Shown here in pieces: positions 34,721-54,171 of a stretch of DNA of 64,000 nt. The notes below the pieces were generated by a model, which was given only the letters and a program-made list of their open reading frames with translations, was not told the origin of the DNA and did not search any database. Origin of the DNA: Ensifer adhaerens (GTDB taxonomy: Bacteria > Pseudomonadota > Alphaproteobacteria > Rhizobiales > Rhizobiaceae); contig NZ_JABEKT010000001.1 in the NCBI RefSeq assembly GCF_013283195.1, forward strand, positions 2,204,509 through 2,268,508, given 5' to 3'. Each line of letters begins with the position of its first letter. The first letter of the stretch is position 1. The position numbers and the translations under genes are program-made.

Positions 34721-34864
34721 TTAACGGAAGGAGCGCGATGCAATGTTGCGGATATCGTAGCGGGTGATGCCGATATCATTGAGAGCGTGGTTCGACAGGT
34801 TGCCGAGCTCGCTGACGGTGCGGCGGTAGTTGATCCAGCTTTTTGCGATACGAATCGGGTTCAT
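34721..34864 (-). CDS. DUF1127 small protein (first copy)
   Basis: A complete 47-residue arginine-rich protein: MNPIRIAKSW at the N-terminus, then LGNLSNHALNDIGITRYDI, the DUF1127 core (L-x-x-L-x-D-I-G-I-x-R-x-D-I). It falls below the usual size cut-off. DUF1127 proteins are tiny, highly expressed and stress-linked in Alphaproteobacteria; in Agrobacterium some take part in RNA turnover and phosphate or carbon metabolism. A hairpin terminator follows. A 14-nt element shared with the two downstream-strand RNAs lies about 115 nt upstream. Confidence 0.93.
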   Translation of the reverse strand: MNPIRIAKSWINYRRTVSELGNLSNHALNDIGITRYDIRNIASRSFR

Positions 34865-34977
34865 GACTTTTTCCTCAAGATCTGTTTGTCGCGACAGCCA
34901 TCTGTCTGCGTCGTTGAGGTTCTTATACGCTTGTCTAATTAGAAGGTGGAGTGCAAAGAAAATGCATCTGCTATGCA

Positions 34978-34991
34978 TTTGTGCAGTGCAT
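34978..34991 (-). promoter_or_regulatory. 14-nt element upstream of the first DUF1127 gene
   Basis: On the minus strand it reads TGCACTGCACAAAT. The same 14 bases occur at 36211-36224 and, with two changes, at 35833-35846, each time in the same orientation upstream of a transcription unit. Here the -10 position 17 nt downstream is weak (ATTTTC), as expected for an activator-dependent promoter. Confidence 0.55.
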
Positions 34992-35231
34992 CGCCACATT
35001 GCTGGGCAAGAATTGCGCCCGCTCGAAAACGCGCCATCGCTTAAAGATTGATTAAAAAGCGGGAGAGGTCCATTAACGATCTGGAATCGTATCATTTTTT
35101 GGGCGGCTATCGGGGGCATGTCGCCGGCGTGTCTTGCTGCAAACCACGGCAGGATTGCCGGTCCGGAGCCGTTCCTGGCTTGTGGTTGGCCTTCGCAGTT
35201 GCGAAGAGAATTTGTTAGGCAATTTGCCAAC

Positions 35232-35265
35232 GAAAAACGCCCCCCGGAATGAACCGGAGGGCGTT
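35232..35265 (-). terminator. Rho-independent terminator after the second DUF1127 gene
   Basis: A 12-position stem with one mismatch (35236-35247 with 35254-35265) is followed on the minus strand by five T. Confidence 0.85.
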
Positions 35266-35306
35266 GGTAATGTCCGGCGCGCTGCGCGAAGCAGCGCTCC
35301 TGGAGA

Positions 35307-35450
35307 TTACTTGATTGCCTGACGTGCAACGTAGGCGATGTCGCCACGGCCGATGCCGAGGTCGCTCAGTTCGCGGTCGCTCATGCGGCCGAGTTCGTTG
35401 CAGGTCTGACGGTACTTGCGCCAATTGTTGAAAGAACGTGCGAGGTTCAT
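35307..35450 (-). CDS. DUF1127 small protein (second copy)
   Basis: A complete 47-residue protein starting MNLARSFNNWRKYRQT with the core LGRMSDRELSDLGIGRGDIAY. It has the same length as the first copy, about 440 nt away, and shares the LG-x-x-S/D-x-x-L-x-D-IGI/LGIG-R-x-DI pattern, so the two are diverged paralogues. Upstream on the minus strand there is a TTATATT -10-like box about 70 nt before the start, but not the 14-nt element of the first copy; the two are probably regulated differently. The terminator downstream is strong. Confidence 0.93.
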   Translation of the reverse strand: MNLARSFNNWRKYRQTCNELGRMSDRELSDLGIGRGDIAYVARQAIK

Positions 35451-35677
35451 GATCCTATCCTTTCTAGGGTCGTTTGCCAGCGCTTGTCTCTCGGCTGGCC
35501 GTCATCTGATGACCCGGAATATAATCGTTTTGAGCAGAAGTTACAGAGATAATGCTGCATCGCACCCATGCAGCTCATGCAGGTCTCGTTTTGATCGATG
35601 CACCGGCGTCGCACTCCGATGCCGCCGCGAGGAGGTCATGGACGTTGCTGGAGAATAGAGGGAGGAGAGGTGGCTGA

Positions 35678-35808
35678 ATCAAACAACGCCCGCTGGGGGA
35701 GGAGATCCAGCGAGCGTCGTTTTGTTCTGATCGGCAACTGGGAGGAGGAGTGCTGCCGATCCAAATCGAGGGGCGCTGGGAGGAGGAGTGCGCCGCCCCG
35801 ATCGATGA
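35678..35808 (-). ncRNA. Alpha-r14 (NfeR1-like) small RNA, copy 1
   Basis: About 130 nt on the minus strand, with three hairpins. Each loop exposes an anti-Shine-Dalgarno sequence: CCTCCTCCC twice (plus-strand 35778-35786 and 35740-35748) and TCTCCTCCC once (35697-35705). The last hairpin has a 15-bp stem and a T-rich 3' tail, so it doubles as terminator. Such loops define the rhizobial alpha-r14 family, whose S. meliloti member NfeR1 affects osmoadaptation and nodulation. A promoter (CTACAC-N17-CTATCT) lies at 35814-35842, placing the 5' end near 35807. Ends are estimates. Confidence 0.82.
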
Positions 35809-35813
35809 GTTGA

Positions 35814-35846
35814 AGATAGTTTAGTCTGCTGAATTTGTGTAGTTCA
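35814..35846 (-). promoter_or_regulatory. Promoter and 14-nt element of RNA copy 1
   Basis: Minus-strand TGAACTACACAAAT (35833-35846) overlaps a -35 region CTACAC, exactly 17 nt from a -10 box CTATCT (35814-35819). Confidence 0.6.
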
Positions 35847-35962
35847 GATGTCTCATGGCACGTATGCGCTGAATGCATGGCTCGACGCGGAGTCGGTGAA
35901 AAGATGCGCAAACATTGTGCAGATGCTTCGAGCGGCCATGATAAACGAGAAGGGAGGGCTGA

Positions 35963-36092
35963 AACGAATAACGCCCGCTGGGGGAGGAGGTCCAGCGAGC
36001 GTCATTGAAGGTGATTGGCAACTGGGAGGAGGAGTGTTGCCAATCGTATCGGAGGGGCGCTGGGAGGAGGAGTGCGCCGCTCCGAATTCCAT
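35963..36092 (-). ncRNA. Alpha-r14 (NfeR1-like) small RNA, copy 2
   Basis: Second copy of the same three-hairpin module, 285 nt from the first. All three loops carry a perfect CCTCCTCCC (plus-strand 36062-36070, 36024-36032, 35982-35990). The middle stem differs from copy 1 by a paired change (T:A against C:G), direct evidence that the RNA fold is under selection. The matching promoter is at 36192-36220, about 100 nt upstream of the first hairpin, so this transcript may carry a longer leader with an extra hairpin (about 36104-36122) and be near 220 nt long. The T tail is weaker than in copy 1. Confidence 0.8.
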
Positions 36093-36191
36093 CGAACTTT
36101 CGTCCGGGTCTTTCCCGGATTCCCGGGGCGGCTGACCATCGCCGCTGGCGTCCGCTTGGCTGTTTGCTTTCGTTCGCCTCTGATGATTTGA

Positions 36192-36224
36192 ATATAGGGT
36201 CTTTAAATCGATTTGTGCAGTGCA
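36192..36224 (-). promoter_or_regulatory. Promoter and 14-nt element of RNA copy 2
   Basis: Minus-strand TGCACTGCACAAAT (36211-36224) contains the -35 hexamer CTGCAC, exactly 17 nt from a consensus-like -10 box CTATAT (36192-36197). The 14-mer is identical to the one before the first DUF1127 gene. Confidence 0.65.
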
Positions 36225-36387
36225 ATATCCGCATGGAAGATATGCGCATTGCGCAAGTCGTCAAATTCGGGCGAAGACACCTGGGGTGCGCGTGATCGAA
36301 TGGTTGTGTTTTTCCGACATTGCATGATTAGGTGTTGATCTCGGCTTGGGCCTTCAAGGGGCAAGTCGTCGCGGGAGGTGGGGCAAT

Positions 36388-53540: not shown

Positions 53541-53615
53541 TGGCACGCCCTAGGGGAGTCGAACCCCTCTTCCCAGAATGAAAATCTGGTGTCCTAACCG
53601 ATAGACGAAGGGCGC
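53541..53615 (-). tRNA. tRNA-Glu (anticodon TTC), copy 1
   Basis: A 75-nt cloverleaf with encoded CCA. The anticodon loop TTTTCAT reads GAA/GAG, and the acceptor GCGCCCT pairs with AGGGCGT. It is identical to the other two copies. Confidence 0.97.
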
Positions 53616-53632
53616 ACTTGCTGTGTGGCCGT

Positions 53633-53662
53633 CTTATAGTCAGCACTCTTTCCGGCTGCAAG
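53633..53662 (-). promoter_or_regulatory. Promoter of tRNA-Glu copy 1
   Basis: Minus-strand -35 CTTGCA, 17-nt spacer, -10 CTATAA. Confidence 0.7.
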
Positions 53663-53812
53663 CGCTAATATCGATTTTTTCAAGGTTTTCTGTGAAAAAT
53701 GCTGGGAGAATCAAAGGCTAAGAATGCGACGCTCATCGTCGAAGCGAAGAGGTGTATGGTGGCCGCAATCCGGCCAAATCGGAAATGAGAATGGTGGTGA
53801 AGAGGGTCACAG

Positions 53813-53887
53813 TGGCACGCCCTAGGGGAGTCGAACCCCTCTTCCCAGAATGAAAATCTGGTGTCCTAACCGATAGACGAAGGGCGC
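53813..53887 (-). tRNA. tRNA-Glu (anticodon TTC), copy 2
   Basis: Same 75-nt sequence as copy 1, with the same flanks on both sides (TCACAG at the 3' side and about 25 conserved bases at the 5' side). Confidence 0.97.
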
Positions 53888-53904
53888 ACTTGCTGTGTGG
53901 GCGC

Positions 53905-53934
53905 CTTATAGTCAGCGCCATTGTAGACTGCAAG
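53905..53934 (-). promoter_or_regulatory. Promoter of tRNA-Glu copy 2
   Basis: Minus-strand -35 CTTGCA, 17-nt spacer, -10 CTATAA. Confidence 0.7.
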
Positions 53935-54096
53935 CGCTAATCTGAAAATTCGCGTGCTTTTCCTGTGAAAAAAATCGGAAAACCTGCGGTGAGTTTGCCG
54001 TGCCAAAGAGGGGGCGCTTCAACGAGCGAGCGTCGAGCTCTCGACGCAAAACCGCCGGTCTCGAACAAGGAAATCATGTAGGGGAGAGGGTCACAG

Positions 54097-54171
54097 TGGC
54101 ACGCCCTAGGGGAGTCGAACCCCTCTTCCCAGAATGAAAATCTGGTGTCCTAACCGATAGACGAAGGGCGC
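54097..54171 (-). tRNA. tRNA-Glu (anticodon TTC), copy 3
   Basis: Same 75-nt sequence as copies 1 and 2. Confidence 0.97.

Follow-up and report, generated by a model that had tools for sequence, protein, structure and literature searches.

A Conserved Promoter Element of ar14 Small RNA and DUF1127 Genes in Ensifer adhaerens as a Probable Operator of the Polyhydroxybutyrate-Sensing Repressor PhaR (AniA)

The ar14-DUF1127 Cassette

This work concerns a short promoter element that recurs in a cassette of small genes of Ensifer adhaerens and the regulator that probably recognizes it, the polyhydroxybutyrate- (PHB-) sensing repressor PhaR, also known as AniA. The DNA searched is a stretch of 64 kb (referred to below as the window). 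On its minus strand, between the trigger factor gene and trmFO, two ar14 small RNA (sRNA) genes and two DUF1127 genes are found, and all cassette coordinates given here refer to this strand. ar14 copy 1 occupies positions 35966-36090 and ar14 copy 2 positions 35681-35806; they score 119.2 and 104.2 bits, respectively, against the Rfam covariance model RF02344, whose gathering cut-off is 58.8 bits. DUF1127 gene 1 (35307-35450) and DUF1127 gene 2 (34721-34864) each encode a protein of 47 amino acids and score 60.5 and 53.6 bits against the profile PF06568, above its cut-off of 23.3 bits.

The same neighbourhood has been described in part in Sinorhizobium meliloti. SmrC14, later named NfeR1, was predicted at 1667641-1667484 between SMc02051 and tig (PMC2780559, Table 1), and a second predicted RNA of 214 nucleotides (nt), sm7′, lies upstream of it on the same strand at 1667983-1667769, not verified at the time of that report (PMC2573895). 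Because of these coordinates and the shared order, ar14 copy 2 is taken as the counterpart of NfeR1, ar14 copy 1 as that of sm7′, and DUF1127 genes 1 and 2 as those of SMc02051 and SMc02052, the latter by position. The two S. meliloti proteins are both entered as "DUF1137" proteins, so printed, in PMC8343143. The exact published SMc02051 promoter sequence occurs in only 2 of 394 genomes, both S. meliloti-like, and in these two the order of RNA and DUF1127 promoters is the same as in the cassette.

Core promoters can be proposed for all four genes. For ar14 copy 1, CTGCAC-N17-CTATAT is present at 36192-36220, and for ar14 copy 2, CTACAC-N17-CTATCT at 35814-35842; these −35-like hexamers and their 17-nt distance from the −10 boxes had already been given, correctly, in a preliminary description of this DNA. 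A possible core promoter of DUF1127 gene 1 is CTGTAA-N17-TATATT at 35518-35546; its TATATT box would place the start of transcription about 26 nt upstream of the one used for SMc02051 in PMC12542648. The candidate core promoter of DUF1127 gene 2 is CTCCAC-N17-GTATAA at 34923-34951. ar14 copy 1, as an sm7′-type transcript with a predicted length of about 220 nt, would carry a leader estimated at about 95 nt (36090-36185), which by eye looks like the leader of a DUF1127 mRNA (compare locus L017). At five loci of Mesorhizobium, Aurantimonas, and a Pseudaminobacter, ar14-like anti-Shine-Dalgarno arrays stand close behind DUF1127 genes upstream of trmFO, as if in one transcript; the Ensifer cassette, by contrast, has separate promoters.

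Operator-Like Sites at the Cassette Promoters

The preliminary description reported an almost invariant 14-nt element upstream of one DUF1127 gene and of both RNAs. The 14-mer TGMACTRCACAAAT is indeed present at 36211-36224; the copy placed at 34978-34991 actually lies at 34977-34990, and there is a near-match at 35833-35846. No further match with up to two mismatches is found in the 64 kb, where 0.79 matches are expected by chance and three or more arise in 4 of 100 shuffles.

The PhaR motif in S. meliloti has been given as WNWD2NYGCRNYGCRNH2WNW, and the phaP1 promoter, which PhaR binds efficiently in gel shifts, carries the site TTATTGTGCACTGCACAAATT (PMC12542648). This phaP1 site contains the 14-mer letter for letter. 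A symmetric operator matrix was built from the 16 S. meliloti PhaR sites marked "Efficient" in the table of that paper; four exoH sites, among which the bound one is ambiguous, were excluded, and eight "Weak" sites and guaB did not enter the matrix but were scored with it. The proven sites score 14.4-27.9 (leave-one-out), the "Weak" sites 12.6-22.3, and the non-binder guaB 16.1.

Scored in this way, the cassette holds the sites that rank first, second, fourth, and seventh in the window. The highest score, 17.6, belongs to a predicted PhaR operator of DUF1127 gene 1, CATGGGTGCGATGCAGCATTA at 35550-35570, which had been overlooked in the preliminary description and is identical to the predicted SMc02051 site of PMC12542648 (Table 3). 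The second, GGATATTGCACTGCACAAATC at 36210-36230 (17.4), covers the −35 hexamer of ar14 copy 1, holds the 14-mer at 36211-36224, and is conserved in relatives. Before DUF1127 gene 2, the site TGGCGATGCACTGCACAAATG at 34976-34996 (13.9, fourth) holds the 14-mer at 34977-34990, and a second, degenerate one, TTTCTTTGCACTCCACCTTCT, lies over the −35 hexamer at 34941-34961 (11.2, seventh). The core YGCRNYGCR with AT-rich arms is present as TGCACTGCA, with TGCA-N-TGCA, at 36210-36230 and 34976-34996, and as the variant TGCGATGCA at 35550-35570. Shuffled windows yield 0.73 sites of at least 14 and 3.0 of at least 11, and the real window outside the cassette has one and three.

Given the candidate core promoter at 34923-34951, the 14-mer of DUF1127 gene 2 stands 25 nt upstream of the −35 hexamer and does not lie over it. 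The corresponding gene of many Rhizobium-group genomes has its intact operator over the −35, read as TTTGCACTGCACAAT, and the upstream one is reduced. The sequence at 35833-35846, TGAACTACACAAAT, had been counted as a third copy of the element. It is a near-match within the −35 region of ar14 copy 2; the operator core is lacking (TGAACTACA), the matrix score is 5.1, and the full word is absent from all of 10 related loci, where the −35 hexamer and some adjoining bases recur (CTACACAAA in L067, CTATACAAA in L068, and CTACCCAAA in L066). It was accordingly rejected as a copy of the element.

LsrB/VtlR Boxes at the Same Promoters

Transcription of nfeR1 is activated by LsrB, which binds TGCA-N6-GCAT at −72 to −57, and repressed by NtrC (PMC10746234); a second description of the LsrB site is GCAT-N3-TG-N3-T (PMC8844928). 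For the orthologous VtlR of Brucella the reported box is CAATGCAGCCATGCA, and this regulator activates three DUF1127 genes and AbcR2 (PMC12595884); in Agrobacterium, VtlR binding has been described for the promoters of abcR1, atu1667, and vrsA (PMC7486931). In the cassette, regular expressions find TGCR-N6-GCAT at 36242-36255, 35864-35877, and 35568-35581, and GCAT-N3-TG-N3-T at 35855-35867 and 35559-35571, as well as reversed at 34975-34987. All four promoters are matched in this way, the box of ar14 copy 1 having G at its fourth base and the match of DUF1127 gene 2 being the reversed one.

ar14 copy 1 is preceded by the LsrB-type box TGCGCAATGCGCAT (36242-36255; compare the published TGCA-N6-GCAT in PMC10746234). 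The box of ar14 copy 2, TGCATTCAGCGCATACGTGCCAT at 35855-35877, in which both descriptions overlap, spans about −70 to −48, in agreement with the published position at nfeR1. At DUF1127 gene 1, TGCATGAGCTGCATGGGTGCGAT (35559-35581) overlaps the predicted PhaR operator, and at DUF1127 gene 2 an LsrB/VtlR-like dyad read from the sequence, GCATAGCAGATGCAT (34962-34976), adjoins the operator-like site of that gene at 34976-34996 and is similar in Rhizobium-group relatives. Relative to the three main operator sites, the LsrB-type boxes are overlapping, directly adjacent, or at a distance of 11 nt.

The host genome has both regulator genes. phaR is present, as PhaR (TIGR01848) is in 105 of 121 genomes of the family, and lsrB was identified as the gene of a LysR-type protein beside an abcR pair, the arrangement published for S. 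meliloti; no NCBIfam model names this protein LsrB. Relatives of LsrB with at least 50% identity occur in 37 of the 39 genomes searched, including 14 of 16 PhaR-less genomes of the family.

Distribution of the Element across Genomes

The cassette was compared with 10 related loci, among them Ensifer, Sinorhizobium, Rhizobium sp., a Rhizobiales isolate, Mycoplana, Shinella, and two S. meliloti-like genomes. TTGCACTGCACAAA stands before ar14 copy 1 in 8 of these 10, with a matrix score of at least 14 in six. No site of at least 14 precedes the NfeR1-type copy 2 in any of the 10 loci or in the window. At other ar14 promoters a PhaR-like palindrome of at least 14 is found at −55 to −58 in 11 cases, of which two concern further ar14 copies within the host's own genus, and here it can share bases with the LsrB box, as in CATTGCTGCATCGCAATATTG.

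The presence of the site follows that of the PhaR gene. When only those ar14 genes that have their own promoter are considered, a site of at least 14 is present in 38 of 50 (25 of 29 genomes) where PhaR occurs and in 1 of 14 (1 of 11 genomes) where it does not (Fisher test by genome, p about 1e-5, uncorrected for kinship). The PhaR-bearing set was drawn from 114 top entries among the matches listed, five higher entries being skipped, and the PhaR-less set from 30 of 34 matches; genes led by a DUF1127 gene (32 of 114 and 13 of 30) and copies internal to arrays (32 of 114 and 3 of 30) were dropped from both.

For the DUF1127 genes, loci of named records were gathered via trmFO (the best 80 of 590), and 97 promoters with 260 nt upstream were scored, nine second genes of tandem pairs being left out. 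A site of at least 14 is present at 52 of 63 promoters from PhaR-bearing genomes, at 20 of 32 from genomes whose PhaR status was not tested, and at neither of two from PhaR-less genomes. Downstream of trmFO in the same loci, 383,936 bases contain two such sites, or 2 in 1431 segments of 260 nt. An exact-core count made without a chance control (78 of 106 DUF1127 genes within two mismatches) has been superseded by the matrix with its controls. In Mesorhizobium, Aurantimonas, and others the operator immediately precedes a VtlR-type box. At five loci of Bosea and Microvirga an operator-like site lies directly downstream of the TATAT box, so that the geometry shifts and the motif is kept; a PhaR site in such a place has also been described at SMa1961 (PMC12542648).

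DUF1127 genes that flank ar14 loci have a PhaR site in 17 of 32 cases with PhaR (13 of 17 genomes) and in 3 of 16 without it (2 of 9 genomes). When all DUF1127 promoters of PhaR-less genomes are taken together, the VtlR box is matched in at least 11 of its 15 positions in 17 of 18 (2 of 18 after shuffling) and the PhaR site is present in 3 of 18; outside these genomes the PhaR site is found at 72 of 95 promoters. The cleanest pair is found within Brucella, where Brucella endophytica has PhaR and keeps both operator and VtlR box and B. rhizosphaerae, in which PhaR was not found, keeps only the box.

Other Matches in the Host Genome

In the host genome, the pattern TTGCANTGCACAA has 35 matches with at most one mismatch, compared with six for the reversed pattern. 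The neighbouring gene was identified for 12 of the 35. They include two phasin genes (four matches), a polyhydroxyalkanoate depolymerase gene, and a type II haloacid dehalogenase gene (two matches), that is, kinds of genes found among the S. meliloti PhaR targets (PMC12542648), as well as ar14 copy 1, DUF1127 gene 2, and three abcR-family RNAs on other contigs. The 14-mer itself gives 12 matches with at most one mismatch, against one for its reverse, and some of these also precede phasin genes. The element is not specific to DUF1127 and sRNA genes, and a restriction to them was rejected in view of the phasin, depolymerase, and dehalogenase promoters.

The three additional abcR-family RNAs (RF00519) lie at C16:261656, C12:453224, and C14:546583, outside the lsrB-abcR pair. 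The best PhaR-type sites at their promoters score 23.2, 22.6, and 22.1, and the one on C16 has two sites, the second scoring 20.9. The abcR pair beside lsrB has no strong site (12.1 and 0.9). Elsewhere in the window, three tRNA genes with equal scores and a spacing of about 280 nt were observed at 53544-54171 on the minus strand.

Weighing the Explanations

The conserved element is probably an operator of PhaR that stands beside or overlaps LsrB/VtlR boxes, LsrB activating the genes and PhaR repressing them until it is sequestered by PHB. Several observations weigh against this reading. The three main cassette sites, at 13.9 to 17.6, are in the lower half of the proven range, one of them below its lowest value, and since the non-binder guaB scores 16.1, a score alone is no proof of binding. 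The published S. meliloti scan table lists a site for neither sm7′ nor SMc02052 (PMC12542648). The copy 1 site is lost in two related loci (L068 and L089), its score is just 12.5 in both S. meliloti-like genomes, and in 4 of the 29 genomes with PhaR no ar14 gene has a site of at least 14.

Exceptions to the co-loss are also found on the other side. G044, a genome of 1.5 Mb in which PhaR was not detected, has an operator-like site of 18.3 at its NfeR1-type promoter. In G031 (5.4 Mb) neither PhaR nor LsrB was found and two DUF1127 sites are kept, both motifs, the PhaR-type site and the VtlR-type box, being carried by these promoters. A further exception is G110, which is 68% complete. In the LsrB tree, genomes lacking PhaR are grouped together (3-4 changes over 21 rows), so the counts are not independent, and the independent losses of PhaR are only a few. 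Many of the PhaR-less genomes are Brucella-like, and matches to the Brucella box are therefore favoured in them; at the other 95 DUF1127 promoters the VtlR box is matched in only 47 (one after shuffling). Finally, at DUF1127 gene 1 and at several NfeR1-type promoters, some bases belong to both the LsrB consensus and the PhaR palindrome.

LysR-type regulators often have two sites, and the 14-mer might belong to LsrB/VtlR itself, the recognition box lying near −65 and the element being the activation site near −35. The close apposition of boxes and operators would suit such an arrangement, as would the reverse of the 34977 site, which fits GCAT-N3-TG-N3-T, and the persistence of the core at the NfeR1-type promoter of the PhaR-less G044. 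It is an unlikely arrangement all the same, because in most genomes without PhaR the element has decayed although LsrB and the VtlR box are retained, it is lacking at copy 2, the counterpart of the LsrB-dependent NfeR1, in all 10 related loci, the abcR pair next to lsrB reaches only 12.1 and 0.9, and phasin and depolymerase genes are preceded by it as well. The decay and the absence at copy 2 led to its rejection as an LsrB site. The proposal of the preliminary description, that one LsrB/VtlR-type activator controls a DUF1127 gene and two RNAs through the 14-mer, is supported in part. An LsrB/VtlR-type regulator at the locus agrees with the boxes at all four promoters, distinct from the 14-mer as they are, its activation of small RNAs and DUF1127-type genes is published (PMC10746234, PMC7486931, and PMC12595884), and the genes do look co-controlled; but the regulators appear to be two, the site at 35833 falls out, DUF1127 gene 1 comes in, and the 14-mer itself fits a PhaR operator and follows the PhaR gene across genomes.

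It is very improbable that the element is a mere extended −35 or core-promoter feature inherited from duplicated promoters, with no regulator bound. The overlap with the −35 of ar14 copy 1 at 17-nt spacing and the similar −35 region of copy 2 would be explained in this way, and the tandem ar14 genes may be duplicates. However, at DUF1127 gene 2, as in Mesorhizobium, the element precedes the −35; in Bosea and Microvirga it comes just after the TATAT box, and it is found at unrelated phasin and depolymerase promoters as well. There is likewise little likelihood that PhaR binds the sites as a coactivator or to little effect, with LsrB doing all the regulation. The motif does precede seven PhaR-activated genes, and the published promoter and protein of SMc03815 move in opposite ways (PMC12542648). 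Against this, the −35 of ar14 copy 1 lies within the operator, and SMc02051, the counterpart of DUF1127 gene 1, belongs to the PhaR-repressed module, its protein changing by log2 +1.51 and +4.63 in phbC phaR as compared with phbC (PMC12542648); the SMc02051 site itself is given there as predicted, with binding marked "not evaluated."

A Proposed Two-Input Circuit

The favoured reading, repression by PhaR superimposed on activation by LsrB, combines the match, position, conservation, and co-loss computed here with PhaR binding of the motif at other S. meliloti genes and the rise of the SMc02051 protein without phaR (PMC12542648). PhaR binding at ar14 copy 1 and at both DUF1127 genes, together with the two-input logic, is predicted from sequence. 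PhaR is reported to bind PHB and, once PHB builds up, to be sequestered, so that its targets are derepressed (PMC12542648). Under PHB scarcity, free PhaR would occupy the operator and block LsrB-driven transcription: at ar14 copy 1 it would sit over the −35, at DUF1127 gene 1 its operator overlaps the LsrB box, and at DUF1127 gene 2 it abuts it. In the simplest model, free PhaR excludes either RNA polymerase or LsrB, PHB relieves this exclusion, and LsrB is needed for activity. When PHB is abundant, PhaR would be drawn onto the granules, leaving the redox-responsive LsrB able to turn on expression of the anti-Shine-Dalgarno RNA and of both DUF1127 proteins. With an LsrB box and no PhaR operator, the NfeR1-type copy 2 would receive the LsrB input only.

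The S. meliloti PhaR regulon shares with the cassette its motif, the 14-mer inside the phaP1 site, and the identical SMc02051 site, and one sRNA, MmgR, is already among its targets; it differs in that its table is without ar14/NfeR1-type RNAs, SMc02052, or abcR, and the terms nfeR1, sRNA, DUF1127, SMc02052, abcR, and LsrB do not occur in its main text (PMC12542648). The LsrB-NfeR1 system with NtrC repression concerns the same sRNA family, with TGCA-N6-GCAT at −72 to −57 as compared with about −70 at copy 2; in the available text of PMC10746234, however, a PhaR input is not described, AniA appears once, in the reference list, and the sister RNA sm7′ is not treated. The Brucella and Agrobacterium VtlR regulon has the LsrB orthologue activating DUF1127 genes and AbcR sRNAs (PMC12595884 and PMC7486931), but the Brucella box stands next to the element and is not the same, and Brucella rhizosphaerae has lost the element.

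Already published, in summary, are the control of NfeR1 by LsrB and the dependence of SMc02051 on PhaR. Listings from full-text searches of open-licence literature, together with counts of terms in the main papers, gave no report of PhaR at ar14/NfeR1, at the second DUF1127 gene, or at the additional abcR copies. The mmgR RNA is not the same RNA as ar14 and is not known to have ar14-type anti-Shine-Dalgarno loops. What mmgR shares with the case described here is a PhaR operator close to the promoter of an sRNA gene; AniA represses mmgR and NtrC activates it, as cited in PMC12542648 and PMC8844928. The sole link found between AniA and AbcR runs in reverse, AniA being a putative AbcR1/2 target (PMC8844928), and because of it the circuit may close on itself.

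Biological Significance

Two halves of a regulatory scheme have been known apart, namely LsrB acting on NfeR1 and VtlR on DUF1127 genes on one side and PhaR acting on phasins, one sRNA, and SMc02051 on the other, and the sequence evidence joins both on one conserved cassette. Two TGCA-type motifs that are alike by eye seem to serve two regulators and can be separated by comparing genomes with and without PhaR. The little-studied DUF1127 genes gain in this way a testable upstream signal, and a possible response of NfeR1-like RNAs and DUF1127 proteins to carbon status is given a rationale. There is about an even chance that PHB stores control a global arm of translation silencing across the Hyphomicrobiales. 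This arm would consist of ar14-type RNAs and DUF1127 proteins, joined in this genome by three extra AbcR-type RNAs, and PhaR operators interleaved with LsrB boxes would place it under a joint switch of carbon surplus and redox state. In Ensifer adhaerens and its relatives, ar14 copy 1 and the two DUF1127 genes may be under the joint control of carbon reserves and redox state.

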